Below, piece after piece: positions 3,338-26,433 of a stretch of DNA of 64,000 nt. How positions within the stretch are numbered: position 1 is the stretch's first letter; the number at the start of each line of letters is the position of its first letter. The position numbers and the translations under genes were made by a program. This DNA comes from Polytrichum commune (lineage: Eukaryota; Streptophyta; Polytrichopsida; Polytrichales; Polytrichaceae), in NCBI GenBank assembly GCA_950295325.1, contig OX485804.1, positions 63,580,533 through 63,644,532 of the forward strand, given 5' to 3'. Under the pieces are notes generated by a model. That model was not told where the DNA came from and did no database searches. It saw only the letters and a list, made by a program, of their open reading frames with translations.

Positions 3338-4075
3338 GATGAAATTTTCTCCTTTACTATATGAGCTTTGTCATTCAACAATAGATGTGCCATACTATTG
3401 TCAACCTCAACCCTCATCTCCGAAATTCATACTAAGTGCAAACAAACCCCGATTTTAATTTTTTTTAATTTCCAAATATTGATGAAATTCTCTCTTCTAG
3501 ATTTACATACGTTTTATTCTTTCAAAACTAGTATTGTCTAGTACTAGCGCCGACCTCAAGCCCTTAATCTTCATATTTTCATACAAAGTGCAAACGAACT
3601 CCGATTTACATTTTCTTTATTGACATGTTGCTAAAATTTTCTTCTCTACATTTATATGAGCTTTTCATTTAACAATAGTACTACACAATACTAGTACCAA
3701 CCTCATGCCCTAAATCTCCACATTTTGATATAGAGTGCAAATAAACTCCGATTTCAATATTCTCTATTACAACAATGATGAAAATTTTTCCTCTACATTT
3801 ATATGAGCTTTGTCATTTAACACTAATACTATGCAATACTAATGCTAACCTCAAGCCCTCAATCTCCAAATTTTCATACAAATTGCAAATGAACACCGAT
3901 ATCAATTATTTGTTTTTTTTTCAATATTGATGAAATTATCTTCTTTATTTATAGGAGTTTTGCCATTCAAGACTAATGTTGTAAATACTTGTGTGGGCCT
4001 CAAGCCCTCAATCTTCAAATTTTGATACAATCCAAGGAGCTCCAATTTCAATTTGTTTTTTTTAATATGTATGAA
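3338..4075. repeat. Satellite-like tandem array, about 147-bp unit, five copies
   Basis: Five head-to-tail degenerate units start near 3338, 3481, 3630, 3777 and 3929 (spacing 143 to 152). Each unit begins with a GATGAAAATTTTC-like phrase, continues with ATTTATATGAGCTTT and an ACCTCAAGCCCTCAATCTCCA-like core, and ends in CGATTTCAAT. A sixth partial unit begins around 4070. Divergence between units is considerable, so this is an old array. No coding potential is seen. Confidence 0.85.
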
Positions 4076-4858
4076 TTCTCTCCTCTCCACTACTATGGAT
4101 TTTTCCCTCACACCACATTGTGGTGATCATTTTGAAGGTCACGAAGATGTGATGTGCCACAAATCTTTTGGTTGCTTGCTTAGACTTTAACTTGTTGTAT
4201 TTGCCTCATGCTTGTGCTTGTGGTTTAATTTTCTTAACAAGTTGGCCATTGGTTTTTGTGGCATTGAATCCTCTCTTTCATTTTTTGGCTACTTTCTTAA
4301 GCCTTGAGTTTGAGTTCAATTTTGTTCTTGGTTGTTGTCATTTTGGTATTCTCTGCATTAATTGACCTTAAGCTTCTTGGTAGTTGCTCTAGGTGTTGCA
4401 CTTGACGGTTTTTTTTTCTGATCTTCAAGCCAACTTGCTCTTCTTGGCGTGAATTGGAGACGGTTGTGGATAAGACCATTGAGAGGTTTACTTCCGCTTT
4501 AGCAACACATTTGTTTTATATTGCCAATTTGACAATCTTGATCCTAGATTTCTGAATATGATAACATCAATGAGATTTCCATTGGTAATAATCGTGTCAT
4601 CGGCATCATGAGTACAACATTAGGTATTGCAAGTAGGTTTTCTATTTTGCACACATTTTATGATATTAACATTTTTCTAGTGTCGTGCACATCGCATACC
4701 ATTCAAAAGATTGTTATGGATAAGTGGATGCATAAGTTTGGATTTAAGGTCCTTGACCATTAGACATGTTTTAATAGTCTTTCCTTTGCAACATACGTAT
4801 TTAAAAAAAATACAAGTAAGTGTACCACATATTCATGTTAGGCATTGAGATCTTCATG
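4076..4858. other. Spacer between the satellite array and the large transposon
   Basis: No gene, repeat or regulatory element could be supported here. Short ORFs on both strands (4168-4365 plus, 4297-4479 minus) show no domain. Confidence 0.4.
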
Positions 4859-4887
4859 TAACACTATATTCGTTAAATTGAGACTTT
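4859..4887 (+). repeat. Left terminal inverted repeat of the 17-kb element
   Basis: 29 bp identical to the reverse complement of 21790-21818. It starts TAACACTATATTCG and ends TGAGACTTT. Immediately inside, TTGAGACT (4878-4885) and AGTCTCAA (4892-4899) form a small hairpin with a 6-nt loop. Confidence 0.85.
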
Positions 4888-5390
4888 CTCTAGTCTCAAA
4901 TTAATATATGGATCAAACAACATTCCGTGTTCCGAAACTATATTGAGAACAATCTCAAATATATTATATGTTCTAATATCCCAAATCTATTATGTGTGGA
5001 CATAAGCACATATGGTAGAGCACTCAACACCAACTTCATCAACAAAAACACTTTGGGTAGAGCACTCCAAACTAGTTTCACCCAAAAAACATATAAAACG
5101 ATTTCTATTATTAGCATGGTCAATAAAATATAGACCTTGCAACATACAAAATACATGCAATAAATGCATTTTTCTTCAATGGAAAATTTAGTCCCAAACT
5201 TAATAAAAAAATGAACTTCACAACTGTATTGAAATATAGTAAATGGATATTCATCCAACCCCAAACAATATAGCATTCGCACGTTCTACCCAAACTTTGC
5301 CCCAAGTTTGAGGAGCACACATATGAGTAATATATATTCGTTGAATTACATATTACACTATAATCATGCTAACACAATCCTCTCAACTTC

Positions 5391-8300
5391 TCATTCAACG
5401 TGGGTTGCTTCTTCTGCGATCCGAGCAAGGTTGTCTTTTGCAAAAGTTATGTACTTTTGAGGGATGGACACTGATCCACTATGATTTTTCCGTGGTTTCC
5501 ATGCTATGAATATGGAATCTGTATCTACCCAAGATGGACCGTGCTTAGAATCCACCTTCCACCGAAAGTTAGGGTTTGTATCCCAGTTTGTATAATGCCG
5601 AACAACATCTTCATTCCGTGTTGTCGATCGGTAGTACTCTACTTGTATTTGTCGAAAATGAGGGCTGGAAGTTACAAAATTTGGTTTGGACAAAGCTCTT
5701 GCCACCCACGCTGGCTTTGCATATGTCTCATCTCCAGGACTCAAAATGAGCATATAACCTTCATGACAATCCACTGCAATGCGGAAAGATGGTGGCGGAC
5801 GACTACTAGCAGGCCCCACGTAATGGTCGTCCACATCAAACTCCTCTCGAACCTCTCCATTTCCCAAAAGACTAGCCTCCGAAGCTTGTACATTGACACG
5901 TGTTTGTGGCCAAAACCCATGCCTTAAAGTAAGGGGTGTATCTTGATGAAGGTTTGCCAAAGCGCCACGAACACGTATCCAATATTGTATCCAACTTCCG
6001 TAACGAAGCCAACACGATCCACCAACATCCGCTACCCTCAAACTCTCCCAATATTGTATGAAGCATGATATGCCTTTACAAATGTCCTCCAAATTCTTCA
6101 TGGGCATTGGTTTGCAAGGCTTAGGCTCTCCGTCAGGCAACATCGTCTTTCCTTCCCCATCAACACGCCATACAAGGAAACCCTCCGGCGGGCTCCAGTC
6201 TTGTGATGTGCACAACAACTTGTATTGCATGGCGGGGACACCATCGTCACGCACGTAGAACCGAAATTGTTGTGCCTTCGTATGCCCGATCAATCGGTGT
6301 GCTCCGCTTCGAATATACGGTTCTATAAATGCCTTGAAGTCTGGAACCTCCTCGATCATATGGGGGATGACGGGAATGTTCTCCAAATCCATGTACGACT
6401 TCATCAACAATGGAATTGTTGGAAAATCCTCCTCGCGCAACTTCATGCTCCACCGCCCAAAAGATGCATCGATATCATCGTGCGTGTGGCCTACCAATAG
6501 AAATGACACAAAAACCTCCTTGAAAATGCCTTTCGCAACCAACAACGACCAATAAGCAAAAACATATCTACTTTTATTGTCCTTCGCACAATTGTCCAAT
6601 TGGACACGCAGAGTTGGGGGCAAATTCTTGGCAATCACATCTTCACTTGGTGGCTCCGGCAAGGAGTGCACGCAGACATCTCTTCCATCCAAGACCGCTT
6701 CATATAGAGGTGTTGATCCCGAGTTTTCAAATAACAATCTTGATGAATAGGACGGCGGTTTCTCCAAATCACGTAAAAGCTTTGCAAATGACCCTATCGT
6801 GTGGTTTGAATCCGCCGGATACAAATCAAGAGCATAATGAGCATATTTGACATCACCATGCCCATGTGCAATCATTCCTGCAAAGCCACCCCAATGGTTT
6901 AATATTCAACTATAACACCAAAAAATTCACATGGTGTACATCTATGGCCCCAAGTACAAACCTAAAAGCACAAATTTGTGTTTAGGTAATGTAATGCAAT
7001 TGTTGTCAAAATCACATGTAACCGATACAAGAAGCTTAAAAAGGCCGTCCGTGGCTTTGATTCGATTTGCAAAACATGGTGAGGCTGTTTTGGCATGGTC
7101 CATTTTATCATGGATGATTGTAAGGACCTCCAAAGGCCTAGAGATGGACAAAACTCTATTTGTGTAGTAACCATTACGGTGTGCCTCTTGCATGTTCACA
7201 TGCTTGAAATAGTTCATTTGATGTGCTGCATAGGACTCTGTCCCCATCGTGTGTGCATCTCGAAGGCGTTTCAACTTCTCGCATTTGGAACAACAGGCAA
7301 ATTTGTCGCCTCGTCTTTTTGTGATGTATTCGCTAAAGTTCGATTTTTTGATTGCACTCAGTTTCGACAACGAAATAGGGTCCAACCCAGCCTCTCGCCA
7401 ACTGCGTTTACGTCCAACAATATGTCTTTCCATCTCGTGCCTGTAGGAAGAACCTTCTCCACAACCTTTTCACCGGTTGCGAGTGTGCGTGTTTTGTGCG
7501 GCATTGCATCGGCAAGGGGGACAATGATGGTTGCCAGAGTGGTTGTTGCTTGTCTCGTTGCTTCCCTTGGTTTCTTCAAGCTCGTATTCCCATGGTGACG
7601 AGACCGGCGTCCTTCCTTGGCATACGCGGCTTGTCTATAAAATTCCGCTTTCAACACACCGTGAATGGTGTACCATGCCGTACAACACACGTCTATGCTC
7701 TCAAGGGTGATGACCTTGCGACCCGCTCCGTTCACATGTATCGCCCTATGGACATCAAGCTTTTTGGTGGATCTGAGACGGAAATCTCCAAGCCACATTT
7801 CCTCGCGGATGGCCTTCAATTTATCCCTTGGGAACAATTGGCAACAACGATGTACACAACAATCCTTTGTGGTAACTTCTCTAATAGACTCCTCACATAG
7901 CAATCTTTGACGTTTACACTCATTTGTAGACGGAGTAGGACGTGCCAATGTATCGTACTTCCGTAGGCCTTTGCGTGGCCTAATGTGTGCTTGGAGCTCG
8001 TGTTGGATTTAGATGTGTCGTCGCTCATGGTCATGCAAGCTAACCCCCTCAATTGTCACATTCCTCAACGGCCACCTTCGCAACGAGAACCTATGAGTTG
8101 GATTCACTTCGGAATGTACAAGTGATTCCAATATAACAACTCCAACGTCATCGGTGCCAAGGGGGTTTTCATCAATGCAATCTTGTAGATGTGTGTTACG
8201 ACAAATACCCTCCGCCACAGCAACTCCATTGTCATTAACAAGTACCACATCCAAATTCACCCATGATGCTCGTGAAAGCCCCGCACATTCCACAATAGGG

Positions 8301-8458
8301 CAAGAAGGGGCAGATGGCGAAGGACTCCCCAAGTCATCTTCATCTGCACTGTCATCAAAACTATCCTCCCCGACAATGTCTAGCTCATCCCCAGACGTAG
8401 ATTGCGTGTTGCCCATGTCGTCAGAGAAGGAATCCCCTCTTCCACCAACTCCCTCCAT
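5391..8458 (-). pseudogene. DUF7869-like DDE/D transposase gene, two coding exons, disrupted
   Basis: Probable transposase of the 17-kb element. Exon 1 runs 8458 to 7016 and exon 2 runs 6877 to 5391. The likely ATG is 8456-8458, directly after a TGTGTGTAG splice acceptor. Order of parts: acidic Ser/Asp-rich N-terminus; a Lys/Arg-rich region (RKGLRKYDTLARP); a Cys pair in CCSKCEKLKRLRDAHT; then candidate catalytic acids in TIIHDKMDHAKT (exon 1), VQLDNCAKDNKSRY and VGHTHDDIDASFG (exon 2). These resemble the RNase-H-fold positions of DUF7869 proteins. A C-terminal part of about 250 residues is unassigned. Lesions: an in-frame TAA at 8009-8011 (both sides are in the same frame), a 1-nt shift near 7434 (PTGTR continues in another frame as MERHIVGRKRSWREAG), and T instead of G before the donor at 7015, which would create a stop after splicing. 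Exon 2 is intact (494 codons from 6875). Family name is from memory of motifs; the fold assignment is inference. Confidence 0.72.
6878..7015 (-). other. Intron between transposase exons
   Basis: Minus-strand donor ACAT|GTGATT (GT at 7015-7014) and acceptor TTTGCAG (ends 6878). An ancestral G at 7016 would give a standard G|GTGA donor and, with GA of exon 2, a Gly codon leading into MIAHGHGD. With the T present, the junction spells TGA. The intron reading is inferred from the conserved-looking protein context on each side. Confidence 0.55.
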
Positions 8459-8658
8459 TGCGCCTACACACATGCACATGAAACCTCAACACACATGGAA
8501 AGAATGTAAGGGTCCAAAAAGAATCAAATATCGGAAAATGCAAGACACCATGATCAATGGGGACACCGAGGATGAAGACATTTCCAACACAACTACACTG
8601 TGAACTCCCAACACTGTGCGCAAGTCCAAAAAAAGTTCCAGAAAATATTTTGGTGGGG

Positions 8659-9470
8659 GTTTGGGTCGACCGGCCCAAACCTCATAAGGGTCATACTGAA
8701 ACCCTAACACACTGGGGTAGGGGTTTGGGTCGACCGACCCAAACCACACAAGGGTCAGACAGAACCCCTAACACATTGGGGTAGGGGTTTGGGTCGACCG
8801 ACCCAAACCTCACAATGGTACATCCACCCACACCAGGTACGGGTTTGGGTCGGTCGACCCAAACCTCATAAGGGTCAAAAAAAATTGAAAACATTGGGGT
8901 AGGGATTTGGGTCGACCGACCCAAACCTCATAAGGGTACATCCACCCACACGAGGTAGGGGTTTGGGTCGGTCGACCAAAACCTCATAAGGGTCAAAAAA
9001 AAAATTGAACACACTGGGGTAGGGGTTTGGGTCGACCGACCCAAACCTCATAAGGGTAGTACATCCACCCACACCAGGTAGGGGTTTGGGTCGGTCGACC
9101 CAAACCTCATAAGGGTCAAAAAAAAATTGAACACACTGGGGTAGGGGTTTGGGTCGACCGACCCAAACCTCATAAGGGTACATCCACCCACACCAGGTAG
9201 GGGTTTGGGTCAGTCGACCCAAACCTCATAAGGGTAAAAAAAAATTGAACACACTGGGGTAGGGGTTTGGGTCGACCGACCCAAACCTCACAAGGGTACA
9301 TCCACCCACACTAGGTAGGGGTTTGGGTCGGTCGACCCAAACCTCATAAGGGTCAGAAAAAAACCCTAACACACTGGGGTTGGGGTTTGGGTCGACTGAC
9401 CCAAATCTGTTAAGGGTCATACATAAACCCTTACACACAAGTGGACAGGTTTGGGTCGGTCGACCCAAAC
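8659..9470. repeat. Array of 14 near-palindromes in the leader or first intron of the transposase gene
   Basis: Fourteen copies of a 22-nt inverted repeat (10-nt arms GTTTGGGTCG and CGACCCAAAC, two central bases) lie about 54 to 68 bp apart, the first at 8659-8680 and the last at 9449-9470. Two spacer types alternate: one with ACATCCACCCACACCAGG, the other with AAAATTGAACACACTGGGG, giving a higher-order unit of about 120 bp. The central bases switch between AC and GT in step with the spacers, so successive copies point in opposite directions. The array sits between the TATA box and the transposase ATG. Translations such as FGSVDPNP or VWVDRPKP in all frames are by-products. Confidence 0.9.
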
Positions 9471-9609
9471 CTCATAGGGTCAGACTCAAAACCCGCCAAC
9501 ACTAGTGGAAAGGTGAAGGTTCGCCCAAGTACACCACAAAATCCGGCGTATAATGCGGCGGATATTGCGTGGTGTGGTGAATTTGAGCTCATTGCAAACT
9601 TCACGGTGG

Positions 9610-9668
9610 GCTTGCATGCTGTGGGTAGGTGCTCATGAACTTGCATGCTGTGGATAAGTGCTCATGAA
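9610..9668 (-). repeat. 29-nt tandem duplication in the transposase leader
   Basis: Two adjacent copies of a unit containing TTGCATGCTGTGG and GTGCTCATGAAC lie between the TATA box and the palindrome array, in what should be the untranslated leader. They differ at two positions. Confidence 0.6.
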
Positions 9669-9774
9669 CGGCAGCATGCACGAATCTTGAAGTACAGCTC
9701 CTACTAAGAGTTCTCTCTACGAATTCGGCAGCGGGAGAAGAGAAAAAAATGACCAACTTCTGGGGGGTGCGCCC

Positions 9775-9781
9775 CTTTATA
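9775..9781 (-). promoter_or_regulatory. TATA box of the transposase gene
   Basis: TATAAAG on the minus strand in a GGATAGTATAAAGGGGCGC context, followed about 30 nt downstream by a pyrimidine-rich CTCTTCTCCCGCTGCC. This is the normal plant core-promoter layout and points towards the transposase gene. The start site would be near 9745. Confidence 0.55.
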
Positions 9782-9783
9782 CT

Positions 9784-12700
9784 ATCCACCTCCGCTTCCC
9801 AGACTTTGTCATTGGATGCCTTCCCCGCCTTCTTCTCTTGCAAAGGTTATTTCAAACCTCCTGACAACATTCCCCGTTTTCTGTTTATAGTAGAAAAATG
9901 CGCATCTATGAATGCCCCTCTGATACCCCGGCCGTCATATGACTTAGTCTATGTTATTTAATCTATTTTTTTTGTTTTGTGTGGATATGACATACGCCAT
10001 TGGGAGGAAGGGTGGCGGCCACATTAATTTTTTCAAGTATCATCACGGCATATTTTAACCAATATGTAGACCCAAACACAACTCCATTCAATGCTTTCAA
10101 GTGTAAACCTATTTAGGTGGGGTTTGGGCCATTTGGAGGCTGCAATTATGAGAGAGTTTCCAAGGCTTGAGGCCATTGTCATGATGAATAGAATTATTTA
10201 TTTGTCTCCACTAAACCCTAAACCCTAGAACATTGCTCTATTATCTCGCATGCAAGTGTGGGAATGACAAACACGTTGTGGACGTTGTTAAGGGGATACT
10301 AACTACCAATGTCCCTTTTTAGTTCAATCTTTTAATGTTACTTGAATCCATCATCAAGTTCACTTCAAGTTTACTAATGTGTGTGAGCAAAACATCCAAA
10401 ATTGGACCCTAAACCTTTATAACATCCACAACATGAAATACATATTGACTAAATACAAAACCAATTAGGATATCCTGTTTAAACGTCCCATATAGCATAT
10501 TCACATGATCAAGATTGTATTTACTATGACCTTCCGATTAGACTCTTCTTCATATTATGCAAACAATATATGTTATATCTTCCTCCATTATCTAATACAC
10601 GTGGAGAGAACAATGAACAACAACATGATTGCTTGAATGGCTTCATTTCATGTTGTGCTTCTCCGATTAACTTTTGCATCACATTCCATATATTCAATAC
10701 ATCATGAACCATGGTTTATTAGCGACTATGTGATTCCCTAAAGTGAGCAAAACATCCAAAGTTGCACCCCTAACCCCTATTAACATCCACAACATTTCAT
10801 GTTATTTGAATAAACACAAGAGCAATCAATATATCGCGTTTAAACGTCTCAAATAACAAATTAACATAATCAAGATCGTCTTTACTATAACCTTCCTATA
10901 AGACTCTTCTCACCAGTAAGACAATGTTATACATTGACATTGGATAGATTAATATGTTATAACCCTATCTCCTATCTCCTAAACCCTAAATCCTAAACAC
11001 CAAATGTAGTTGTGGTTCACTGATGCCCCCATATACAAACAACATCTATTTTATCTTGCGCCATCATCTAATATACATGGAGGGAACATGTATAACAACA
11101 TGATTGCTTGAATGGCTCCATTTGATGTTCTGCTTCTCCGATTTACTCTTATATCACAATCTAATATATATTAAATATATCGTGAACCATGGTTTATTGG
11201 CCACTCTGCGATTCATCAAAGTCACAATATCAGGGATGTACTTAAAACTTGAGCATGTTAGCATTTTCAAATAAGGCTCATGCATTTCAAAACCCTTACA
11301 AAATGCAGTTGGGGAATGTATTCATTTAATAGGCTCCACACTCAAGTATTCTAAATTGTTCCACATGTTAGGGGGTGTGGGTAGATTTTTTTATTCATTC
11401 AATATCGTGTGAGTTGTTGGCATCATTGGTAAAGTCTAGATGTCAATGATTACATCGTTGAATATCACGCAATTGTATGGTTTTCCTAACATGCTCGAAC
11501 AAAAGAGAAACCAATGCCCTCAATGTGTTTGGAAAATTTAGGGTATGGTGTCATGTAAGTAAGGGTTAAGTATTCGTTTAGCACAAAGTTTTGTTGTAAG
11601 AATGCATTGGCTATATAAATGGTTAGTTTAGTAGAATAACACATTTTATGTAGCACCTTAGTGTACTCCAGAGTTCAAGGTACATACTATTTAAGGGCTT
11701 TATGTTGAATAGCCTTCAAGTTACATACTATTTAAGTTGCATACTATTTAAGGGCTTTATGTTGGATGAACGAGAGGTGCACTTGTGCACTTTAGAATTA
11801 TGTCTTGCTATAATTTTTTACCGACATTATCGTTTTTTACGAACTAAGTCATATCATAATTTTTCGTGTGCATACTACCTAGTTATGTTATTTGGATGAA
11901 AAAATACTTTCTATTAAATGTTACAGAAATGTGTAACTCCGAATGTTATGCCACACTAATTAGAAAAAATAGTCTAGTGGATTAGGAAATGATCACAAGC
12001 ACAAGGGATTGAAAACTTGAGAAACTTGTACAAAAGCTTTGGTGGGGTGCGAGGTGGGGGTGGGGGGCATTTTATACATCATAGTAGAGTTATACATGAA
12101 GTCTTGGATCAAACTTAGGTTTGAGAATATAACCATAAAGTCATCCAATTATTTCAAGGACTTAGAACCAATTTTAAAGCAGGACCACAACAACATAGTC
12201 TAATGTTTGGGTCGTCCTACCTAAACCATCCCAAATTAACGAATATAGTGATTAATACAAATGCAGCCTAAAAAATAAGTGACTTAGCCTATAAAATTTT
12301 GAGAGTGTAGGACAAAGAGCCTATGCACAATTTAAGAACATAGGATATCAACCTAGTATGTGATAAAAAACATGTAGGAAATTTTACCTACAAATTTTTT
12401 AAAAGAGAGGATTTTAGCCATTCATCCTTCTTCAAATTGGGAAATTAGTTGGCCTAAGTACATATCTTTAGGCTATATCTTGCAGGAAGAGTAGAGGTTG
12501 AATCAGAAGATGGTGAGGACTTTTACCCTTAAACTCATTTGAATTTTAGCAACCTTTCATAACTTATAATCAACGCTTTAAAAAACAGTTGGTTAATCCT
12601 TGGCCTTCAAACGTGGTGAAAGGCATAGTTGTTGGCATCATTGGGAAAGTCTAAATGTCAATGATTACATCGTTATATGTCACGCAATTGTATTATTTTT

Positions 12701-12889
12701 CTAACTTGCTCAAACAAAAGAGAAACCAACGACTTCAACTTGTTTGGAAAGTTTAGTGTATAGTGTCATGTAAGTAGGGGTTAAGTATAAGCTTTGGCAT
12801 AAAGTTTTGTTGCAAGAATGCCTTGGCACCGCACCTTAGTATATTTCATGTAGCACCTTAGTTCATTGAAATAAGTAATACCCGCTAAG
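9784..12889. other. Intergenic part of the 17-kb element between the two divergent genes, with internal duplications
   Basis: No protein-coding exon is supported. Two direct duplications are visible. The first is 10382-10740 against 10740-11220 (shared phrases AACATCCACAACAT, GTTTAAACGTC, AACATGATTGCTTGAATGGC, CATGAACCATGGTTTATT-like), the second copy carrying an extra segment at about 10910-11035. The second is 11412-11668 against 12627-12868 (GTTGTTGGCATCATTGG, TGTCAATGATTACATCGTT, ATGTAGCACCTTAG). These divergent copies suggest internal rearrangement during the element's history. Confidence 0.65.
12190..12250 (+). repeat. Internal copy of the right-end sequence
   Basis: The segment holds a degenerate palindrome (12205-12226) followed by TTAACGAATATAGTG (12236-12250), matching 15 bases of the right terminal repeat. 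The palindrome context (AGTCTAATGTTTGGG ... CCTACCTAAACCATC) also matches the right-end subterminal repeats at 21440-21480. It looks like a fused subterminal repeat plus terminus, which would be the end of another or older family member. Confidence 0.6.
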
Positions 12890-13714
12890 GGTTTAGAGTT
12901 AGGCTTTAGGATTTAGGGTTCCCCGAAATCCTAATTACGTGGGTACCCTAATCATGTGGGCCGCCTATTGGCGGGGGTGGGGCCAATTCCCGAGGCGAAC
13001 AAAACCCCAAACGTCACCTTTTCGAATTCTTTCTCTCTCTCTCCGCGCCAAGCATTCCCTCTGCGCCTCGCTTGGAAGCGCCGCCTCTCCTGAAGCGCCG
13101 CGGCGATTCAGGCGCGGTATTCCCACCATTCTGCTTCTTCTTCATTATTTCTCTTTTTGCTCTTGCTCTTGCATAACTCTTATCCAATCTTAGGTTTTAG
13201 GAAGAGTCTTGAAAAGCACAGAAACTTGCGGAGGAAAGGTTTAGTGCGTGAGGGTAAAGGAACTTAGTAGAGGAGTTTTCAAGAGTGTTGTTTAAGAGTG
13301 TTGCAGAGTGTTGAAGAGTGCGGCAAGAAGTTAGGAGAACATCGTGTAGGAGGTTGAGATTGTGCTTGTGAGTATCAGGAGTTATTGTGTAGTGCAAAAG
13401 ATTTCAAAGTCGTTTGAGCGATTCTATAATTTTGTGATAGATTCAGGAGTTGCTTGAGACATTTAGAAGTCGTTTGAGAGATTCAGAAGTCGTTTGAGAG
13501 ATTCAGAAGTCTTTTGAGAGATCCAGTATTTGTTTGAGAGATTTCAGAGTTGTTTGTGAGATTTCAGAGTTGTTTGAGAGATTGAAGAGTTGTTTGAGGG
13601 ATTCCAGAGTTGTTTGAGATTGAATAGTTGTTTCAGAGATTCCAGAGTTGTTATTGAAGGTTATTGGAAAGAGACATCATCTACTCCAAAGTGTTTGCAG
13701 TGCAAATTTCAAAG
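12890..13714 (+). promoter_or_regulatory. Putative promoter and untranslated leader of the plus-strand element gene
   Basis: Base composition jumps from AT-rich to GC-rich at about 12940. A CCAAT (12977 region) is followed by the pyrimidine stretch TTCTTTCTCTCTCTCTCC (13027-13044), a typical plant transcription-start context, then by a leader without long ORFs. A splice donor AAAG|GTATTG lies at 13715, and the first coding exon begins after a TTGCAG acceptor at 14371. No clear TATA box is seen. The assignment rests on layout and composition. Confidence 0.5.
13406..13655 (+). repeat. 20-nt minisatellite in the leader
   Basis: About a dozen imperfect copies of a 20-21-nt unit (TCGTTTGAGAGATTCAGAAG and variants TTGTTTGAGAGATTTCAGAG) run head to tail. 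The unit is purine-rich on the plus strand and close to pure GA/T. It lies in the inferred untranslated leader just upstream of the first donor. Confidence 0.85.
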
Positions 13715-14371
13715 GTATTGTGTTATGTTTCTGGTCTCTTAGTGTTGTAGCATACACAACACATAAGCATTGTTTATGCTATGTGCAAACTTTTAAAATA
13801 TATTAATAAAAAACACTTTGGGGAGACGACCCAAACAAGGACTGTTGTTTGGGTCGATCGACCCAAACAAAGGCAGACGTTTGAAACCCTCCACCCAAAC
13901 AAAGGCTGATGTTTGGGTCGCTCGACCCAAACACAGTCTTTTAAACCCTAAACTCATAAAGAAATCCATGATGTTAGATACAATATAAAATACAAATCCA
14001 CCCAAAACTAAATAATCCGATGTCAGCATACAAATGATGTTCACATATAATAATACAAACTAGGGTCCTCTCATTCTTGGGTCGCTGGACGCAAACAAGG
14101 GCTAATGTTTGGGTCGCTCGACCCAAACACAGTCTTCTAATTATAAACCCATCAAACAATCTATGATGTTAGATACAATATAAAATGCAAGTCCACCCAA
14201 AAATAAAAATACAATATCACCATTAAATGATGTTCACATATAACAATACACAAACCAACAAAATACATGCGGCAATCTATTACATTTCAATTACATCACG
14301 TGACTTCTATTCAGTTTGAAGAAGTTTGGGTCGACCGATCGAAACTAACATTGGGGCTTCATTCCTTGCAG
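13715..14371 (+). other. First (leader) intron of the ParB-like gene with palindromes and a direct duplication
   Basis: Donor GTATTG at 13715 and acceptor CCTTGCAG ending at 14371. The intron contains near-palindromes at 13847 (centre AT), 13911 and 14107 (centre CT), plus broken ones near 13810, 14077 and 14334. A direct duplication of about 150 bp (13911-14060 against 14107-14256) begins with the palindrome and shares TGATGTTAGATACAATATAAA and ATGATGTTCACATATAA-type phrases. The architecture mirrors that of the transposase gene's leader. Confidence 0.6.
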
Positions 14372-15055
14372 ATGGCCCCAAAGAAACGACCAGGCGAAAG
14401 GTGGTTCATGCTTGCGCTAGACATGATATGGCAAGAGCACGAAACACCGGAAGATGACTCCTACATTCCTAAGGACGGGCTTGTCCTCGCGTGGTCTATC
14501 CAAGTGGTTAAGGGTTCGCAATACAAAATGATTTTTGTTGTGAAGGTTGGGACCGTGGAGAAGCACACATGGGCTACTCTTACGGGGTGGGAGGTGGCAT
14601 CGGTTCAGTCTCTTGGAGACTACGTGGATGTCATCCTCGAGAACAACGCTGTCCAGAACGCGCATATGTTTATGCACCAGTTCTCCGAACCCTTTGACGC
14701 TATCTATGCAAAAGAAACATGTGTAGAACCAGACATCATCAAACCGGAGTCCATATTCATCGATAACAGTACATCGAACACAAAGGTGTCGAGCCGATTC
14801 ACGAAACTAAAGCATGCAATCAGCGTGCTCAACAAAGCCCTGCAGAGCAAAACCAAGTCTCAGCAACCCGTGAGGCGGAAAGCTAAAACAGAGGAAGGTG
14901 TAGGGTCGTCAAGACCTCAATCGGTGAGGAAGCCGTGACCAGTACCGATTGACTCGCGGAGGACCACTCCCTCCCAAACACCTGCAGATAGCGAGACGCC
15001 TACACCTTCTGGGAGCCGTCAAACAACTCCATCCAAGAGGGCAAGAGAGTCATCT
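14372..15055 (+). other. N-terminal region of the large gene, unrecognised domain, with in-frame TGA
   Basis: Begins MAPKKRPGERWFMLALDM and includes a compact alternating hydrophobic region (VLAWSIQVVKG, MIFVVKVGTVEKHTWATLTGW) suggesting beta strands, then a basic Ser/Lys/Arg-rich linker. Family not recognised. The TGA at 14936-14938 sits in the linker. The same frame continues open on the far side to 15697, so it is read as one mutated Arg codon. I looked for an intron that would skip it in frame and found none that keeps phase. Confidence 0.6.
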
Positions 15056-15697
15056 GTGATGACTGACGAGCCAGTCTCACCGGAGTTGCGCATGCCGAAG
15101 CCCGGCGAAGAGGTGGATGCAGGGGAGCTGCAGAAAATCGTGAACAATTTCACGACGAAATGCTCCCACTGTTTTTTCATGGGCAGGGATTTCAAGTTTG
15201 ACGTGAACATCAGCCAGTGCCATCTAGCGCCACCGGAAAAGTGTGTCCGGGCAAAGGAGGATGCCTACGTTGACTGGATAATTGCGCAAATCGTTTGCGA
15301 GCAGTTTAAAGACGACAGACAAACGATTGTAGTGATGCCACAGGGTCTCAAGAAAATGCCTACACCTGAAATGTGGCCAACAATTCAGAAGGGCGTTTTT
15401 TGGCTCATAGACGGCCAACACAACGTGGAGGCATCCAAGAAAATCCAACTCATGAATGAGTGGGATGATCCGAACAATCAGAAGGAGAAGCTGAAGGTTT
15501 GGAAGGCACTGGTGGTGTGGTCTGACGACGAGACCAAGCTCAGCGACATCTCCCGGTACTTCAATATGGGAAACAAAAAGAGGGCCTACCAAGCGTCCTG
15601 GATAAGGAATATCATGGCCTCGCGGGAGGTGTGGGAGTTCTATGGTAGGCCTCCCAAGGAGAGGGAGAATGCGAAGGACAAGAATCCCAAGTGGGAG
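15056..15697 (+). other. ParB/sulfiredoxin-like domain segment
   Basis: The stretch WPTIQKGVFWLIDGQHNVEASK has the ParB-fold signature (a strand ending in DGxHR-like residues followed by EAxK; here the Arg is Asn). It is followed by KVWKALVVWSDDE, SRYFNMGNKKRAYQASW and REVWEFYGRPPKERENA, which fit the helical part after a ParB-like core. In bacteria and phages such domains bind palindromic parS sites or precede N6-methyltransferase domains; here a methyltransferase-like segment also follows. The assignment is by motif only. Confidence 0.55.
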
Positions 15698-16054
15698 GTG
15701 AGTATTGTTTGGGTCGACCGACCCAAACACCTGGTGCAACCTTGTTTATCTAGTTTGGGTTGCTCGACCCAAATAATTGTTGCAGTCTTGTGTTTTCTAG
15801 TTTGGGTCGATCGACCCAAACAATTGTTGCAGTCTTGTGTTTTTTTAGTTTGGGTCGATCGACCCAAACAATTGTTGCAGTCTTGTGTTTTTTAGTTTGG
15901 GTCGATCGACCCAAACAATTGTTGTAGTCTTGTGTTTTTTTAGTTTGGGTCGATCGACCCAAACTCTTGTTGCAGATGTTGGTCATGATATGGTTTGAAA
16001 ATCACATGTACATATCTAACACGCATTCAAATGTTATGTTTGGTTCACGTCCAG
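15698..16054 (+). other. Intron 1 of the large gene, packed with palindromes
   Basis: Donor GTGAGT at 15698, acceptor CACGTCCAG ending at 16054, phase 0. Palindrome copies start at 15707, 15753, 15800, 15848, 15895 and 15943. The last four are perfect 22-nt palindromes (centre AT), set in a unit of 47-48 bp that also carries TTGTTGCAGTCTTGTG. Each unit therefore contains an acceptor-like TTGTTGCAG (TTGTTGTAG in one). Confidence 0.8.
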
Positions 16055-17680
16055 GATTTCAAATACCAGATGATCAACAAATTCTCCTCCATTGATAATT
16101 CGAGCCACAAGTAGAAGAAATACAGCGACCTCAAGGGGGAGATTTACTTGATTACAGCATCGGACTCAGTTTGGAAGAAGTGAAAAACCGTGTTTGAAAA
16201 GTACGAGACGGGAGATTTGATCGATCCCGACACTGGCATTTATTTCAGCCAAACCTCGCGCTTCAAGCAGATGAAGCCTCTCGTGAGAGAGTTTTTTAGA
16301 ACTCTTCAAGGGCTGTCAGAGACGGAGGTGGAGAAAGCGGCATCGCACATCCTGCACGTGGCACCCACGGCGAAGAGGTGCTGGGTGCACCCGAAGATTG
16401 TCTTCCAAAAACCAAAATCCTTCGTTCCTTCATGCTACACCATGAAGGAATGGACGGACAACAAGAAAAAGAAGACGACTATCGTGCATGAGCTGCATAA
16501 ATTGGTGCCAGAGAGGAATATTGTCGTGGACGGCGAGGTTCATGAGGCTAACTGGAGATCATTCAAAGCTGAATATAAGTTCACCAGTGCCTCCATGGCG
16601 GCTCTAATAAGGGAAGCGGGTGACGATTTCTTGCGGGCCAAGATGGTGAAGGGTGGGAAGAACCGGGTGCTTCCGGATCACACAGCGCATGCGTTCTCGA
16701 ATTTCATCAAAGAGAAGAAGATTGTCCAGTTTGAAGGGGAAGCGTACTTCAACCTTGTCACCGTCGACCCTTTGAAAATTCAGGGTTGGCCAGGTCAAGA
16801 CGCCAGAATGGCGATAAGGACGAAAGCAAGGGACCGCTTTCCTTTTGGGATGATTGATTTCAGGAATATTCCTGGAAGCTCATTTGAGGGCACGATGAGC
16901 ACCCTCTTCTACGACCCCTTCCTGTCTAAGTTCGTCGATTATGCAAGCCCTAAGTTTAGGGAGGTAGATATCTGGCTTTGGATAGTCGAGGATAGGAGGG
17001 CGGAGCAGGTGTACGAGCTTGTCCGGAAACTGCAGCCGGAGTATGCAGTCTCCAAGTCTCACTACATCGCCGCACCAGCGGAGGGGGCTTACACGACGTT
17101 GAGGGACAAGAAGACCAAGTTCGTCAACGTCTTGTGTTTGTACTTCGTGTACAAAACGGAGTTGCTGAAGGTGCCGAACCACCCTATATCCCAAATGGAC
17201 AAACTCTTCCAAGTTCCAGAAGGGTTGGGTGCCAACAAGTGCCTCTACGACGAGGCTAAATACGCGAACTATCCTGTAGATGAGCTGCGTATGGAATTTT
17301 ACGTGAGAATGATGAGGACGCTGACGAGGAGAGGGGACTGCATCTTCAACGTCTTCGGAGGCTCGAAACCTATCTATGCTGCCATGGTAAGTGATTTTCT
17401 ATAGCTCGTGCGCAGTTTGGGTTGATCGACCCAAACTAGGGTCTTTGTTGGTTTGGGTCGATCGACCCAAACTAAGCTCTTTGCAGGTTTGGGTCGATCG
17501 ACCCAAACTAGATATTATTTTTGGTCTTGTTTATGTCCCTCGCCTAATTCTAATGTCTATATAACTTGGATTGTGTAGATGTCGGGGCTGAGTATATACT
17601 CCTACATAGAGGATGGCGATCTGCCATTTTACAGGGCGCAGAGATCGCTGGCGAAGAAGATGGACATCCTCGATTGGATC
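16055..17680 (+). other. Beta-class N6/N4 DNA-methyltransferase-like segment (exon 2 and start of exon 3)
   Basis: FNLVTVDPLKIQGWPGQD resembles motif IV (D-P-P-W/Y), here DPLK. About 170 residues later RRGDCIFNVFGGSKPIYAAM joins after splicing to MSGLSIYSYIEDGDLPFYRAQRSL, resembling motif I plus the acidic SAM-binding strand (gD-x-F-GGS-x(3)-AA, then E/D and a Y..A..RL helix). The order IV then I is that of the permuted beta class. Both key motifs deviate from active enzymes (no DPPY/W, GGSK in place of GSGT), so it may be non-catalytic. Two stops (16112, 16181) lie before the motifs. Alternative: an unrelated Rossmann-like domain. Confidence 0.45.
17387..17578 (+). other. Intron 2 of the large gene with three palindromes
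   Basis: Donor GTAAGT at 17387, acceptor TTGTGTAG ending at 17578, phase 0. Palindromes begin at 17415, 17451 and 17487 (period 36), all with centre AT; the first has one arm mismatch (GGGTTG). The intron splits the methyltransferase-like motif I region. Confidence 0.8.
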
Positions 17681-19064
17681 CCGGGTAGCTACGTCGACGA
17701 GGTTGTTCAGGGGGGCGAAAACCCTCTTGATAGGGTGAGGCGGATCAACCCGGAAGAAATGGCCATGAGGGCCACAACCCAAGTACCCGAACCTCTGGTC
17801 GGGTTGCATCTGGGCAATCCGTCCCGCACAGAAGGTGGCGAGGTTGACGAGGAGGAGGAAGAAGAGGAGCACGAGGAGGCGGAGAAGGAAGGCGACGTGG
17901 AGGAAGGGGCAACGGGCTTCACGCAAGAATCCGAAGCCCCTCAACGGAAGAAGGCGATGCGGGCGGCAACCCCGCAGAGTAAGCTGGTGCCCGTCCTGAC
18001 GGTGGACGATGCACGGGACATGTACTCCAGGGACGCCACCGCCACGTTTAGGGAGAGGAGGAAGTTAAAGGGGAAGAAGCTGTATGGCAACTACTCCGTG
18101 GAGGAGACCATTGCCATAAGCAGCGAGGACGACGATGACATTGAGCTCGCCAAACGGCTAAGATCGGATCCCCCGTCCCCGACAGCGTTCGCTGGCATGG
18201 TTAGGGTGAAGCCCGAGGTCCTGACTGTGGAGGAGGCGAACGAGAAGATGAGGAGGGACGAGGAGCAGCGAGTCCGCCTGCAGAAGGCTGCCGCGGAAGA
18301 ACCCTCAATGCGGAACGAGGTCGCAGAGCTGAGGGCTCTCCTGTTGGAGCAGGAGCGTCAAAGGGCGATGGCCCAACCTCCGTCCCACGCTGACTTGATA
18401 TCACAAGTGATACAAGGAATGTGGGCGCAAGGTTTGGTGGTGGCTCCCTCCAGCTCCTTCCCGCACTTGCCCCCCGGCTTCCCTGCGCAGAGCATCCCTC
18501 AGCAACCTTTGCTGCAATCGTCTTTCAGTTTCCAGCACTTGATTCGGCCCCACCAAGTTCCGTACGCGCCGGTCCAGCAAGTGGATGACCCCAACATCTG
18601 GCGCGTCTCTGGAGCCTCCTCCCCTTTGGGCCCTCCACCACTTCGGCCCCCCATAGTCATGGCGCCCCCCCCACCAATCGGACGACCCCAGGATGTTTGG
18701 GTCGACCGACCCAAACCCACCATCCACTGTAGTGTCCGAAGGGCCCTCTCCAGATGCAGGACAGTTTGGGTCGGGCGACCCAAACCCCGTTGCAGCGCAG
18801 TCCTCCCTTGACCAACATGGGTGTCAACTAGACACGGCCATGCTAGATGTTGAAGGCCTGCAAGGGCCTGGTGATACCTCTACTCCTAACCAAATCGATG
18901 AACCCATGCATGATGCACATGCGGAGATTGGTTTAGGACAAGGGCCTGATGCCGATCGTTTGCAGGAGAAGGTTCCTGACGTCGTTGGAGAAGGCGGTGG
19001 CGAGAGAGGCGGGGCAGCGGGGACGGTGGAGGCTTCCACATCGTCGAGACATGACCAGGGTGAG
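17681..19064 (+). other. Acidic, coiled and proline-rich linker region of the large gene
   Basis: Contains a Glu run (EVDEEEEEEEHEEAEKEGD), a short hydrophobic-acidic stretch TIAISSEDDDDIE that resembles a SUMO-interaction motif, a charged probable coiled coil (EEANEKMRRDEEQRVRLQK) and a Pro-rich part. Two palindromes lie inside the coding sequence (18695 with centre AC, 18764 with centre GG) and read as FGSTDPNP and FGSGDPNP in the downstream frame. The frame changes near the C8 run at 18664-18671; the downstream frame stays open to 19064. Confidence 0.5.
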
Positions 19065-19549
19065 GTAATACACTGAGCCCTCCCAGTTTGGGTCGACTGA
19101 CCCAAACTTCTTGGGTCATTGTCTTGTTGGCCTGGTCGTGTCCCCCTTGCTAGGAGGAAATGCACACCCCTTGCCCCCCCTGCTCTACACTTGCTCCCCC
19201 TCCCCCCAACGTGCCCCCCCGCGATCCCCTTCGTCTCGTCTGCATTCGACTACGCTCGACCTTGGCGGCGCGCAACCAATTTTGTGGATGTAGAATTAGG
19301 ATAGTGTGAATGCCCTCGTTCACCGCGGTCCCCCCCCATCAAATTATACATAGAGATTTGTAAAAATAAAATTATTATTTTTGGCGCCCATATGTTTGCA
19401 TCCATGGCCCAATGTATGTTGTTCCCCTTGTATGTTTTTGTTGCCACCAATGGTCCAATTGTTCTTGTGTTTGCACAAAATTTCCGTTCTGCTTGAGATG
19501 GACATAGCATAACATAGTCCTCGCCGCCTTCTCTCGCTCGTCGCCGCAG
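19065..19549 (+). other. Inferred intron 3 of the large gene
   Basis: Donor GAG|GTAATA at 19065 (an alternative GTGAGG at 19060 breaks phase) and acceptor CGTCGCCGCAG ending at 19549. One palindrome copy begins at 19086 (one arm mismatch). A C-rich stretch (CCCCTTGCCCCCCC and others) follows. Joining keeps phase 0, as for the other introns, but could be coincidence. Confidence 0.5.
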
Positions 19550-20362
19550 GGTTCGGAGCATAGCGTCGCGGCTCCCCACCGATCCTCTCCGAGGAGTGTG
19601 GAGGACAGCGTGCTGGTCCCCCCGATTTTGCCCTCGCCACCTTCGCCTCCCAAGACCCGGTTCCTGGTGCTAGACCTCAACGGGGTCCTTGTCCAGTGCG
19701 TGCATTGTCCGAGGGTCCCCACGGTGCCTTTCTGCAAGCCCGAGGACACCAACTACGATGGACCCCCCGCGTACATCAAAAGCAAGCTAGTGTACCTCCG
19801 CCCATCCCTTCGGCGCTTCCTACAGGTCGCCCTATCCAAATGGTGGGTGTTCATTTGGAGCTCCATGAAGTCCGAGAATACCCAGGCCGTCGTGGAGTTC
19901 ATCTTCAAGGGACTCCAACCCCCGTGCTTGGTCCTAGGACAAGATTCTTGTAAAACATTATACACCCCCGAGGGTAGGGTTGTGAAGAAGCCCAACAACC
20001 CCGCCGTAAACCAATTTCTTAAGGTCTTGAAGCCAGTCGTATGGGACCAGCGTCCGACCATGGTCGGCTGTCCCTACGACGTTCGCCCCACCCGTGACAA
20101 CACGTTGATGGTGGACGACAGCGCTTCCAAAAACATTTTGAACCCGACCTCGAACTTCATAGTTTGCCCCACGTGGACGGTCGAGAAGGTCCAAGACCGC
20201 TTTTTGTTAGACCTACTTAAGTACATTCAAACGCTCATGGGGAGCGGACTACCCGTGCCCCGGTTCCTTAGTTGTAATCCGATAGGCGAAAGATACATGG
20301 ATCCGAAGGACTATATGTACAGAGAGTTGTATGCTCACGCGAAATATAATAAACTCATTTGA
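19550..20362 (+). CDS. FCP1/NIF-type HAD phosphatase-like domain (last confident exon of the element gene)
   Basis: Open from the acceptor to TGA 20360-20362 (270 codons). HAD motif I appears as FLVLDLNGVLVQ, motif II region as VFIWSSMKSENT, a candidate motif III Lys in RVVKKPNNP, and motif IV as TLMVDDSASKNI. This matches the FCP1-homology/NLI-interacting-factor family seen in plant proteins, including the DLNG variant in which the second Asp of DxDx(T/V) is Asn. That second Asp is normally the general acid, so activity is doubtful. No lesion inside. If not spliced to the upstream exons it would need a non-AUG start or the acceptor read as exon start; the first ATG (M in SSMKSENT) is too late for a full domain. 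Confidence 0.65.
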   Translation, partial: GSEHSVAAPHRSSPRSVEDSVLVPPILPSPPSPPKTRFLVLDLNGVLVQCVHCPRVPTVPFCKPEDTNYDGPPAYIKSKLVYLRPSLRRFLQVALSKWWVFIWSSMKSENTQAVVEFIFKGLQPPCLVLGQDSCKTLYTPEGRVVKKPNNPAVNQFLKVLKPVVWDQRPTMVGCPYDVRPTRDNTLMVDDSASKNILNPTSNFIVCPTWTVEKVQDRFLLDLLKYIQTLMGSGLPVPRFLSCNPIGERYMDPKDYMYRELYAHAKYNKLI

Positions 20363-20481
20363 GATACTACATGGTGTGCCATTGTGTGTGATATATTATG
20401 CCTCAATTGTATATCGATTTTCACATGCTCCCCCCTCCCCCCCTCCCCTTGGGTTTTGTTTTGTTTCTTTTTTTGCGCCAG

Positions 20482-21278
20482 CGTTTGGAGCCCTCGATTG
20501 AGATCGTCAGCGAATCAAACTTGGGGAGCTTCTTCTACGAGACCGTCTACGATGCCGCGTCCACCATCGACTACTCCAAGGAGCCTCTTGACGCCGGCGT
20601 CGTTGATAGCCCCCCACCCAAGCAAATCTTACGGCGATCTCCGTCCCCGTCGCTGCTCAAGGGCATAAATCGCAAATGCATCCGGACGTCCCCCTCTCGG
20701 CCCGGCGGCAGTATTACACCTCAACGGCGGCTGCGGATGGACACTCGGCCTACGAAGAGTGGAACCCTTCCTATTCCTTTGCGGGACGCCTTGCCCCTCC
20801 TCGCCAACTCCGACGCGAATGGCCCCGGTGACAAGGTGAACCCCCCCACACATGGTTAACCGCGCATTACAATCATTTTGCTCTAAAAAAATGAACGTGT
20901 GACACGTTTGGGTCTTCCTCCCTAAACTAACACATGTGGTCTTGCATTGACGCGTTGCAGGTTGCTCCCACCCGTAGACCTATGCGGGCTAGTGCGTCCG
21001 TCGAGTTGGAGCGTTTCTACTCCATGACCAGAAATGCAAGACAGTCCACTTCATCGTATTCGAATTCTTCGTCGTATAATTCGGGCGGCCGACGGAATCC
21101 AAAATGTGTTATTGATGGCGGTCACCCCAAGAATGGCTATAGTCGCGGGGCGGAGATTTTCAGGAATGTTGAAGCAATGCGAGCAAAAGAAGCCGCAGCA
21201 AAAGAAAAAGAGGCAAAAGAAAAAAAAACAAAAGAAAATGAAGCAAAAGAAAAAGAGGTAGTCTCCGAGGCTAGATAG
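20482..21278 (+). CDS. Two downstream exons of unknown protein, Lys/Glu-rich C-terminus
   Basis: Exon A 20482-20835 (acceptor TTTTTTTGCGCCAG, donor AAG|GTGAAC) and exon B 20961-21278 (acceptor GCGTTGCAG) are both phase 0. A reads RLEPSIEIVSESNLGSFF..., with Ser/Pro/Arg-rich stretches; B ends in a strongly charged MRAKEAAAKEKEAKEKK-like helix and TAG. There is no ATG of their own near the start. They may be alternative 3' exons of the large gene (its TGA at 20360 lies only 120 nt upstream) or a second gene whose first exon I cannot see. The intron between them holds a degenerate palindrome (20906). Confidence 0.45.
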
Positions 21279-21427
21279 GCCATAGTAGGCGTAGGGTTTT
21301 GGGCCATAGGCAAGAACATTTTGGGTCACAGTATGCAATGGATGTGTGGTGTTAGCATGCTATGCATTTTACATGCCACACTTTGTATGTTTTTTTTTGC
21401 AATAATATAAGTGTCACATGATTTCCC

Positions 21428-21670
21428 CTTCCATATGGTCTAAGGTTTGGATTGCCCTACCTAAACCATCACAAATATGAGTTTGGAATATTTTGTATGT
21501 TATATTATATTGGTTCACATATTTCCCCTTCAATATGATCTATGGTTTGGATTGCCCTACCTAAACCATATTCATACAAGTTTTTGTGCGATAATATGAA
21601 TGTTTTAAGATTTCCCCTTCAACTTGGCCTAAGGTTTGGATTGCCCGCCCTAACCAATCCCAAATATGAG
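21428..21670 (+). repeat. Three subterminal repeats near the right end of the element
   Basis: Three copies about 90-100 bp apart share TTTCCCCTTC-A---GG/ATCTA-GGTTTGGATTGCCC-ACCTAAACCA. Each contains a degenerate form of the element palindrome (21444, 21544, 21633) in which arm symmetry is partly kept. A fourth copy lies inside the element at 12190-12235. Confidence 0.8.
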
Positions 21671-21789
21671 TTATTAATGGGGTTCTTGTTCTAAACACCC
21701 GCTTCAAAGTGTTCGCATCTTACAACTTTCTCCAATATGTGTTCCGTTTATCCTTGTTCTTATTTCTGTGAATGTCTCAAAATGCCCAA

Positions 21790-21818
21790 AAAGTCTCAAT
21801 TTAACGAATATAGTGTTA
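21790..21818 (-). repeat. Right terminal inverted repeat of the 17-kb element
   Basis: Perfect 29-bp mirror of 4859-4887. GTCTCAA is found twice in the same orientation just inside the end (21774-21780 and 21793-21799), typical of subterminal repeats bound by a transposase. Confidence 0.85.
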
Positions 21819-22765
21819 TGTCTCATTGTCTGTAGATACATGAAGTTCAATGTTACCATTAACATTTTTTCATTTCTTTTGTTTGATGGAGATGTACGCA
21901 TTTAATTATTTTGTATTTATGATGAAGCAAAGTGCATCACGTATGGATGCATTTTTTTTAGGCCATCATTGTGTGATGGAGAATTGTCATATTCAACAAA
22001 TCTTTTTTTTGAGTGACATATTATTGAACAATGCTACGGTTGATGACTTGACTGTGACTAAACTAGCATTGAAGGGGATCACAAAAAAAATTCAGCAATT
22101 ATCATGAGTTTCAAAAATATTGTTGCCCCAAAAATTGAGTGGTGGTTGAACTTAATGTCTTGTCATGTATAACATCAATAATTCTTATTTTGCATCTTGA
22201 TATTTATATTATTTGTCTCTAAATTTATTCAACTTGTGAGGAAAAATATTTGTCATTCCAAGATCATGTATAAGGCATGACAAACTTTTGGACACAAGCT
22301 GGTATTTTTTTCCCTTGGCTGCAAAGTTTTACAAGGAAAACATCCAAGAGATGTTGGAGGAGGAGACACATACTCAAATCTTCTAATCATAGCAGCAAGT
22401 CTAGTTACATATCATATACCTCCCTTCATCCAAAATTTGATGACATGGCCATAAATTCAAATTGTTACTTAATTTTAGAATTATACTTGAATTGAATTGT
22501 CAAATGTGATTGGTCCATCTTCTCGTGGCTACAATCTTCCGCCATGGCTAGAAGACACAACACGCCTACACGTGAATTCATGATCACCCACCCATATTCG
22601 TTTTTTACATTGGAAATTTAGAGGTGGAGTCAAATTATACATGTTTGTAAAGGCAGTTAAACCCTCTAAGTAGCCTTTCATTTATTTGTTGGCAACTGTG
22701 TATGTTTTAATGAATTGGTGATTTCTATAAGATCTATGAATTTTGATCTCATTCATTGTGGACTA
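21819..22765. other. Spacer, no gene supported
   Basis: Flank of the 17-kb element. An 85-codon plus-strand ORF (21850-22107) and a 72-codon ORF (22277-22495) have no recognisable domain and biased Phe/His/Met content typical of translated AT-rich DNA. Confidence 0.4.
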
Positions 22766-26218: not shown

Positions 26219-26433
26219 TTTCCTCTTCTCTCAATTCCCGGCTCAATCCTCTCTTCCGGATTCCTTCCCTTCCGTCTAATTGCCACAGAGTCCCGGCAAG
26301 CCCACGGCCGGTGACTGAAAAGTGCAGAGTCCCAGCAATCCCACTGCTGGCGGCTCGAAAGAATTAACACCTCACCACTCGTTCTCTCAACAGGTTGCCT
26401 TTTTCAGAAAAAAGTGGGAGGGAGAAGGAAGGG

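Follow-up and report, generated by a model that had tools for sequence, protein, structure and literature searches.

The DNA analysed here, a window of 64,000 nucleotides from the moss Polytrichum commune, holds an element of 16,958 bp (positions 4860 to 21817, the boundaries being set by comparison with other copies). The first-pass annotation had claimed perfect 29-bp ends, and the inverted match between 4859-4887 and 21790-21818 is exact over 29 bp; the terminal repeat itself, however, is 28 bp long (4860..4887 on the forward strand and its exact inverted match at 21790..21817 on the reverse strand), and the two outermost bases of the longer match (T and A) are part of a 4-bp target site duplication, ATGT (4856..4859 and 21818..21821). 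The boundary is visible in the copies: alignments of the left end at the 40 scored places begin with the first or second query base, with one exception at base 4, and the match to the window ends at the same element boundary in seven other loci. The terminal repeats begin AACAC (AACACTA) and carry the motif TTGAGAC. Duplications of TA and TG had been considered from the window alone and were dropped, as other copies show 4-bp duplications. At one locus (L002), three extra flanking bases are identical to those of the window by chance.

The repeat was sought, as had been advised, in the source genome (407.8 Mb), where the left end recurs in at least 40 places (40 scored out of 1047 first-look candidates) at 98-100% identity, spread over seven contigs, a number in keeping with n=7 in Polytrichaceae. 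Both ends were present in 12 of 19 copies examined, and the right end was not found in the other seven; a perfect 4-bp duplication flanks eight of the 12 two-ended copies (the window's and seven others) and is absent from four. Copies bounded by the terminal repeats span 16.4-17.9 kb, and of the two-ended copies, each of the six that were read from end to end (the window's and five others) holds both genes inside. Terminal inverted repeats common to many copies, together with a target duplication of fixed length, place the element among the class II TIR transposons. It had also been considered that the repeat might be confined to this locus, which its recurrence contradicts, or that the ends might be separate small elements (MITEs) flanking unrelated genes, since MITE insertions in opposite orientation can create long inverted repeats; the duplications, the spans and the recurrence of both genes at five further loci refute the latter reading, which retains a negligible probability, and bear out the original reading of a large two-gene DNA transposon. 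The window copy is broken, and stop-free frames are found in other copies. Positions 4860-21817 are best read as one decayed copy of a recently mobile, 16-18 kb family of cut-and-paste DNA transposons.

The first gene, which is spliced and lies on the reverse strand, opposite to the second, encodes a DUF7869 protein. Its predicted exon 1 (7016..8479, with a putative end) contains a stop at 8009-8011 and a frameshift near 7385-7394 in the window copy, and exon 2 (5391..6877, with a putative start) holds the match to PF25273 (DUF7869; Pfam 1e-41) and is 91% identical to protein P0001. Its fold and a set of conserved acidic residues make this protein a probable DDE/D transposase, and its dN/dS is 0.12-0.15; against solved structures, the DUF7869 profile gave matches only at E 0.8 or worse, and a literature search found no paper containing "DUF7869". 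Three Physcomitrium DUF7869 clusters (P0018, P0037 and P0043) are 43-46% identical to the window's protein over 93-99% of the query, while two other Physcomitrium-named clusters among the five listed cover 85% and 50% of it. The gene comes from a family known in mosses, to which its named homologues belong, and which is perhaps Sola1.

The second gene runs on the forward strand, its transcription pointing away from the first, and had been described as a giant ParB/methyltransferase/HAD-like gene, a description of which the HAD part is secure by profile and the other two labels are weak. Its first exon (14372..15697), with one in-frame stop at 14936-14938, contains a ParB-like stretch (DGQHN) that has no Pfam match and gives weak profile matches to phrog_1033 at the DGQH motif (E 0.017-0.045, in three of 24 members). 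The next exon (16055..17386; in-frame stops at 16112-16114 and 16181-16183) contains methyltransferase-like motifs, whose order was read by eye in an alignment and whose label found no support in profile searches. A linker exon follows (17579..19064, with a predicted end), bearing a frameshift between about 18590 and 18680. An open frame at 19508..20362 then encodes a HAD/NLI-interacting-factor (FCP1-like) domain, matched by PF03031 (NIF) at E 1.9e-13 with a score of 50.8 bits (cut-off 21.8). This frame is stop-free in eight of the eight copies that hold it, and it is read as the probable 3' exon of the second gene because no start codon lies ahead of the domain. The usual HAD motif is DxDxT; here it reads DLNGV, and phosphatase activity is therefore doubtful. 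Searches against solved structures gave matches only at E 0.85 or worse for the second gene's profile and none at E 0.01 for the HAD frame, and a structure model of the gene product (mean pLDDT 31.8) was too poor for use.

Relatives were also sought in mobile DNA of other kinds. Four scans of viral contigs, with three proteins and the palindrome, yielded none; in one of them three stretches fitted a pattern, but a relative was encoded by none of these; tblastn of P0122 against phages gave no match, nor did the BELL-like open reading frame against plasmids. Polyvalent proteins of phages have been treated elsewhere (PMC5512222).

For the first two exons of the second gene, the median dN/dS is about 0.065, a lower ratio than that of the transposase. 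These exons are under purifying selection, and the gene is accordingly considered to have belonged to the element for a long time, as more than a passenger. That it was captured from a host or foreign source and is of no use to the element seems highly improbable: the mosaic copy c8, whose transposase exons are 95.8-97.0% identical to the window's against 75.5-79.3% for its gene-2 exons, might be taken to favour such a capture, but the selection extends over deep divergence, and the regions upstream of both genes share the palindromes described below. Left halves (end and transposase) and right halves (accessory gene and end) appear to have been swapped between elements.

The element also contains a 22-bp palindrome, GTTTGGGTCGNNCGACCCAAAC, with 31 occurrences (up to three mismatches) between 8659 and 19107; elsewhere in the 64-kb window there is none, and the shuffle expectation is 0. 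The earlier observation that the unusual content lies between the ends thus holds for the two spliced, opposite-strand genes and for every palindrome. Fourteen occurrences form an array upstream of the transposase gene (8659..9470), a place where the ten other long copies have an array as well, a single imperfect one lies between the two genes (12205..12226), and four stand upstream of gene 2 (13847..14345). Within gene 2, there are six in intron 1 (15707..15964), where read-through of the intron in homologues shows the same palindrome, three in intron 2 (17415..17508), two in coding sequence (18695..18785), which are 69 bp apart in six of six copies compared, and one in intron 3 (19086..19107). 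From copy to copy, the palindrome arms show about 99% identity and the spacers 63-70%. The conserved second gene and the many copies of one palindrome together suggest that the element recognises and handles its own DNA.

As a whole, the element is best explained, with good probability, as a two-gene cut-and-paste transposon whose second product putatively acts through the palindromes. The putative DUF7869 transposase, judging from its fold and acidic residues, would cut at the terminal repeats, with insertion at 4-bp NNNT sites. Whether the ParB-like/methyltransferase-like product binds the palindromes and uses them on the element's own DNA is close to an even bet; the palindromes stand ahead of both genes as well as within the introns and one exon of gene 2 itself, and the bound protein could recognise element DNA, control both genes, mark or shield the element against silencing, or gather copies. 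The FCP1-like HAD part may, as a guess, have chromatin or the transcription machinery as its target.

Alternatively, the palindromes could be bound by the transposase or a host factor, gene 2 doing something unrelated. TnpA of CACTA elements, which binds subterminal repeats, offers a model for this arrangement, and the window's largest array stands directly upstream of the transposase gene; this alternative is nonetheless unlikely, as the window's palindromes keep clear of the outer 3.7 kb at the left end and 2.7 kb at the right, the regions to which a transposase has to bind, the terminal repeats carry another motif (TTGAGAC), and palindromes occur in gene 2's introns and a coding exon. Further, no translation of the palindrome occurs in the 120 DUF7869 proteins listed, though such proteins cover little or no intron. 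Less likely still is action in RNA, with intron or leader hairpins controlling the splicing or stability of element transcripts: many of the palindromes are intronic and hairpin formation is open to any perfect palindrome, yet the regions upstream of the two genes hold arrays as well, and conservation extends to the arm sequence itself and not to pairing alone.

Cargo of the ParB-methyltransferase kind is already reported from giant transposons of algae. In the brown alga Ectocarpus, Sola1-1_Ec32 is a giant Sola1 TIR transposon of 21.5 kb encoding, on the strand opposite to its transposase, a 1104-aa protein with ParB-like and DNA methyltransferase domains (PMC12477816); the placement of a second gene on the opposite strand of a giant transposon recurs in the moss element. 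The passages describing the algal element mention neither a HAD domain nor a palindrome array, and the word stem "palindrom" is absent from the main text of that paper. That the algal proteins bind and modify the transposon's own DNA has so far been a suggestion. Among the matches listed in literature searches combining ParB with transposon, bryophyte and land-plant terms, only the Ectocarpus paper was judged to bear on such a gene. The proposed new type of cargo-bearing plant transposon is therefore better seen as a fresh variation on an algal precedent. To the own-DNA idea, the land-plant family contributes a target open to testing, a single exact palindrome that has been kept while the DNA around it diverged.

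Should the gene-2 protein indeed mark its own DNA, this would give a transposon a route to evade or steer plant silencing. DNA-modification cargo is likewise described in fungi, where KDZ, Plavaka and other DNA transposons carry TET/JBP genes thought to aid escape from silencing (PMC12730594), although the enzyme is a dioxygenase and the transposase families are different. An analogy can also be drawn with bacterial ParB-parS, in which a ParB-like protein and clustered palindromic sites share the same mobile DNA; by that analogy, and as a tentative and rather doubtful proposal, a ParB/methyltransferase-derived protein might load on the 22-bp palindrome, a site of its own with tens of repeats per copy, and so mark, group or protect the many dispersed copies in a plant nucleus; the element would then carry a self-recognition system comparable to the handling of parS-bearing DNA by bacterial ParB. 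Nothing beyond the weak profile matches at the DGQH motif points to homology with that system.

Among plant transposons, CACTA/EnSpm elements are likewise large and carry an additional gene together with binding sites in several repeats, but have CACTA termini and a 3-bp duplication, whereas the moss termini read AACAC with duplications of 4 bp; no CACTA-type Pfam domain was present in the ten open frames scanned. A 4-bp target duplication is the rule in Sola1 itself, and the moss element shows duplications of this length. Such duplications also characterise the Sola2 group (PMC3627910), and "Physcomitrella Sola1" has been tabulated (PMC9033089), so that moss transposons are likewise known from a superfamily with 4-bp duplications.

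The giant transposon at 4860-21817 is real, mosaic, and present in multiple copies; its accessory gene is under selection, and it has a palindrome dedicated to it. It is close to certain that this is a transposon carrying both the minus-strand DUF7869 transposase gene (gene 1) and the plus-strand accessory gene (gene 2). The perfect 29-bp ends proposed in the first-pass annotation stand as an exact inverted match (4859-4887 against 21790-21818) but not as the length of the repeat, since the flanks show a 4-bp duplication, ATGT, on each side, for which a 28-bp terminal repeat is the better reading. Past this repeat the two ends are alike only at background (local score 29.5; among 200 random pairs, 5 scored higher, at 34 to 38, and 1 scored equal). 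Because no above-background likeness extends beyond the terminal repeat, the alternative that the ends are two copies of one small element was ruled out.

The first 442 bp of the element were used as a left-end query against the window's own assembly (407.8 Mb, 64 contigs), giving 40 scored places, window included, among 1047 first-look candidates, at 98-100% identity and with alignments starting at query base 1 or 2, or at base 4 in one place. Eight loci were read, including that of the window, and all seven others lose similarity at the predicted element end; L002 has three further flanking bases in common with the window and is similar only to position 6085, and at L005 similarity covers 444 bp only, plus a separate right end. 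The copy sample comprised ten 20-kb stretches (c1-c10, four of them copies of L003, L004, L006, and L007), eight copies read at their ends, and the window. Both ends are present in 12 of these 19 copies. No right end was found within the stretch read in c1, c4, c6, c7, c10, C6_1868, or C1_27588, in the first five even with five mismatches allowed; c1 and c10 each contain an inverted end from another element. Same-family elements are inserted into or against each other at c5 (L017/L018), c1 (L009/L010), and c10 (L027/L028).

The anticipated recurrence of the repeat at many loci was thus borne out, with perfect 4-bp duplications in 8 of the 12 two-ended copies among the 19 examined (ATGT in the window, AAAT, ATTT, and CAAT, then CCTT, AAAT, TTAT, and CCAT), all eight ending in T and bounding elements of 16.4-17.9 kb; by our own estimate, chance would produce such matches in well under one copy in twelve. 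The two-ended copies lacking a duplication are c9 (TTTA/CAAA), the nested c5 (ATTC or TTTG versus ATTA), C4_5432 (TTCT/GTTA), and C4_888 (ACCA/TAAT), whose right end has 4 mismatches and may belong elsewhere. Gene content was judged on the window and on five other copies with both ends whose full length was read (c2, c3, c5, c8, and c9), all of which hold both genes, so the pairing of a transposase with a second gene between such ends does occur elsewhere. In c8, the left half is close to the window (left end 97.7% identical, transposase exons 95.8-97.0%), in contrast to the right half (gene 2 75.5-79.3%, right end 85.4%); the halves therefore differ in history, for which recombination between element lineages is the simplest reading.

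Gene 2 consists of a ParB exon (14372-15697), a methyltransferase (MTase)-like exon (16055-17386), and a linker exon (17579 to about 19064), followed by an open frame matching the HAD/NIF domain (PF03031, E 1.9e-13), taken as its 3' exon because no start codon precedes the domain. The window's copy is broken by three in-frame stops and one frameshift. Homologous clusters numbered 3 by the first search and 87 in all by profile search. The HAD part of the originally proposed ParB/methyltransferase/HAD gene is upheld, while the ParB label is weak, with the PHROGs ParB-like model matching the DGQH stretch in 3 of 24 members (E 0.017, 0.040, and 0.045) and a PHROG of unknown function matching there in one other (E 0.0051). 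The methyltransferase label was read by eye from the order DFRNIP, then DELRMEFY...RGDxxFNVFGGxK, and found no support in profile libraries. This order resembles that of the motifs of permuted N4/N6 methyltransferases.

A similar layout is found in Ectocarpus Sola1-1_Ec32, which carries a ParB-like and N4/N6 methyltransferase gene opposite its transposase. The 4-bp duplication and moss setting are consistent with Sola1, a Physcomitrella member of which is listed in PMC9033089, and kinship of the transposases is putative. On a limited literature survey, the presence of a HAD-extended gene of this kind in a land-plant element, and the conserved palindrome arrays, appear to be novel.

Selection was assessed across the ten long copies and the window, dropping pieces that covered <75% of the query and, except for the ParB exon, pairs with dS <=0.03; pairs are non-independent and include broken copies. 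Median dN/dS was 0.122 (39/45 pairs) and 0.149 (60/66) for transposase parts one and two, 0.064 for the ParB exon (9/21, the other 12 being saturated at synonymous sites and giving no ratio), 0.066 for the MTase exon (27/28; median dS 1.43), and 0.192 for both the linker (15/15) and HAD (28/28). Stop-free pieces made up 6/12 of transposase C parts, 7/10 of N parts, 4/7 of ParB exons, 6/8 of MTase exons, 3/6 of linkers, and 8/8 of HAD frames; both transposase parts are stop-free in c4, c6, and c7.

The palindrome GTTTGGGTCGNNCGACCCAAAC occurs 31 times (<=3 mismatches) at 8659-19107, with 0 expected in shuffles, and is absent at that threshold from the rest of the 64-kb window. Its two central bases vary (AC 12, AT 8, GT 6, CT 3, TC 1, and GG 1). 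The ten long copies hold 8 to 72 each, and sites correspond among two-ended long copies upstream of each of the two genes, in introns 1 and 2, in a coding exon, and in intron 3; past the right end, none was found in the 0.4-3.4 kb of flank read in c2, c3, c5, c8, and c9. Across seven copies (window, c2, c3, c5, c7, c8, and c9), arm identity was 98.6% in the gene 1 array, 99.0% in intron 1, and 99.2% in intron 2, above a floor of 85% set by site finding with up to three mismatches, versus 63.5%, 62.7%, and 69.9% for the best-matching spacers. Two coding palindromes lie 69 bp apart in 6/6 copies and are exact at 10/12 sites. An exact translation of the palindrome is present in 32 of 87 gene 2 clusters, mostly in read-through tails (37 with one mismatch), and absent from 50, many of which stop before or soon after the exon end, as well as from all 120 DUF7869 proteins. 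The self-recognition mechanism proposed for the element has an even chance at best. At 3891-8311 of the c1 stretch, a run of 64 palindromes spanning 4.4 kb lies upstream of the transposase gene, compared with 14 in the window, so the arrays expand strongly.

Between the two genes, a 20-bp tandem repeat (13403-13652, 12.6 copies) contains several TTGAGA motifs, also present at the element's ends. Outside the element, adjoining minus-strand open frames of 511 and 178 aa (24155-26230), in a G+C-rich block and with no Pfam match above its cut-off, look like a putative gag-type retrotransposon region, and a tandem array of period 135 or 258 occupies 37061-37720. Minus-strand pieces of a POX-domain (BELL-type homeobox-associated) gene at 33177-35704 (PF07526, 7.1e-15 and 4.1e-11) indicate that the host is a land plant.
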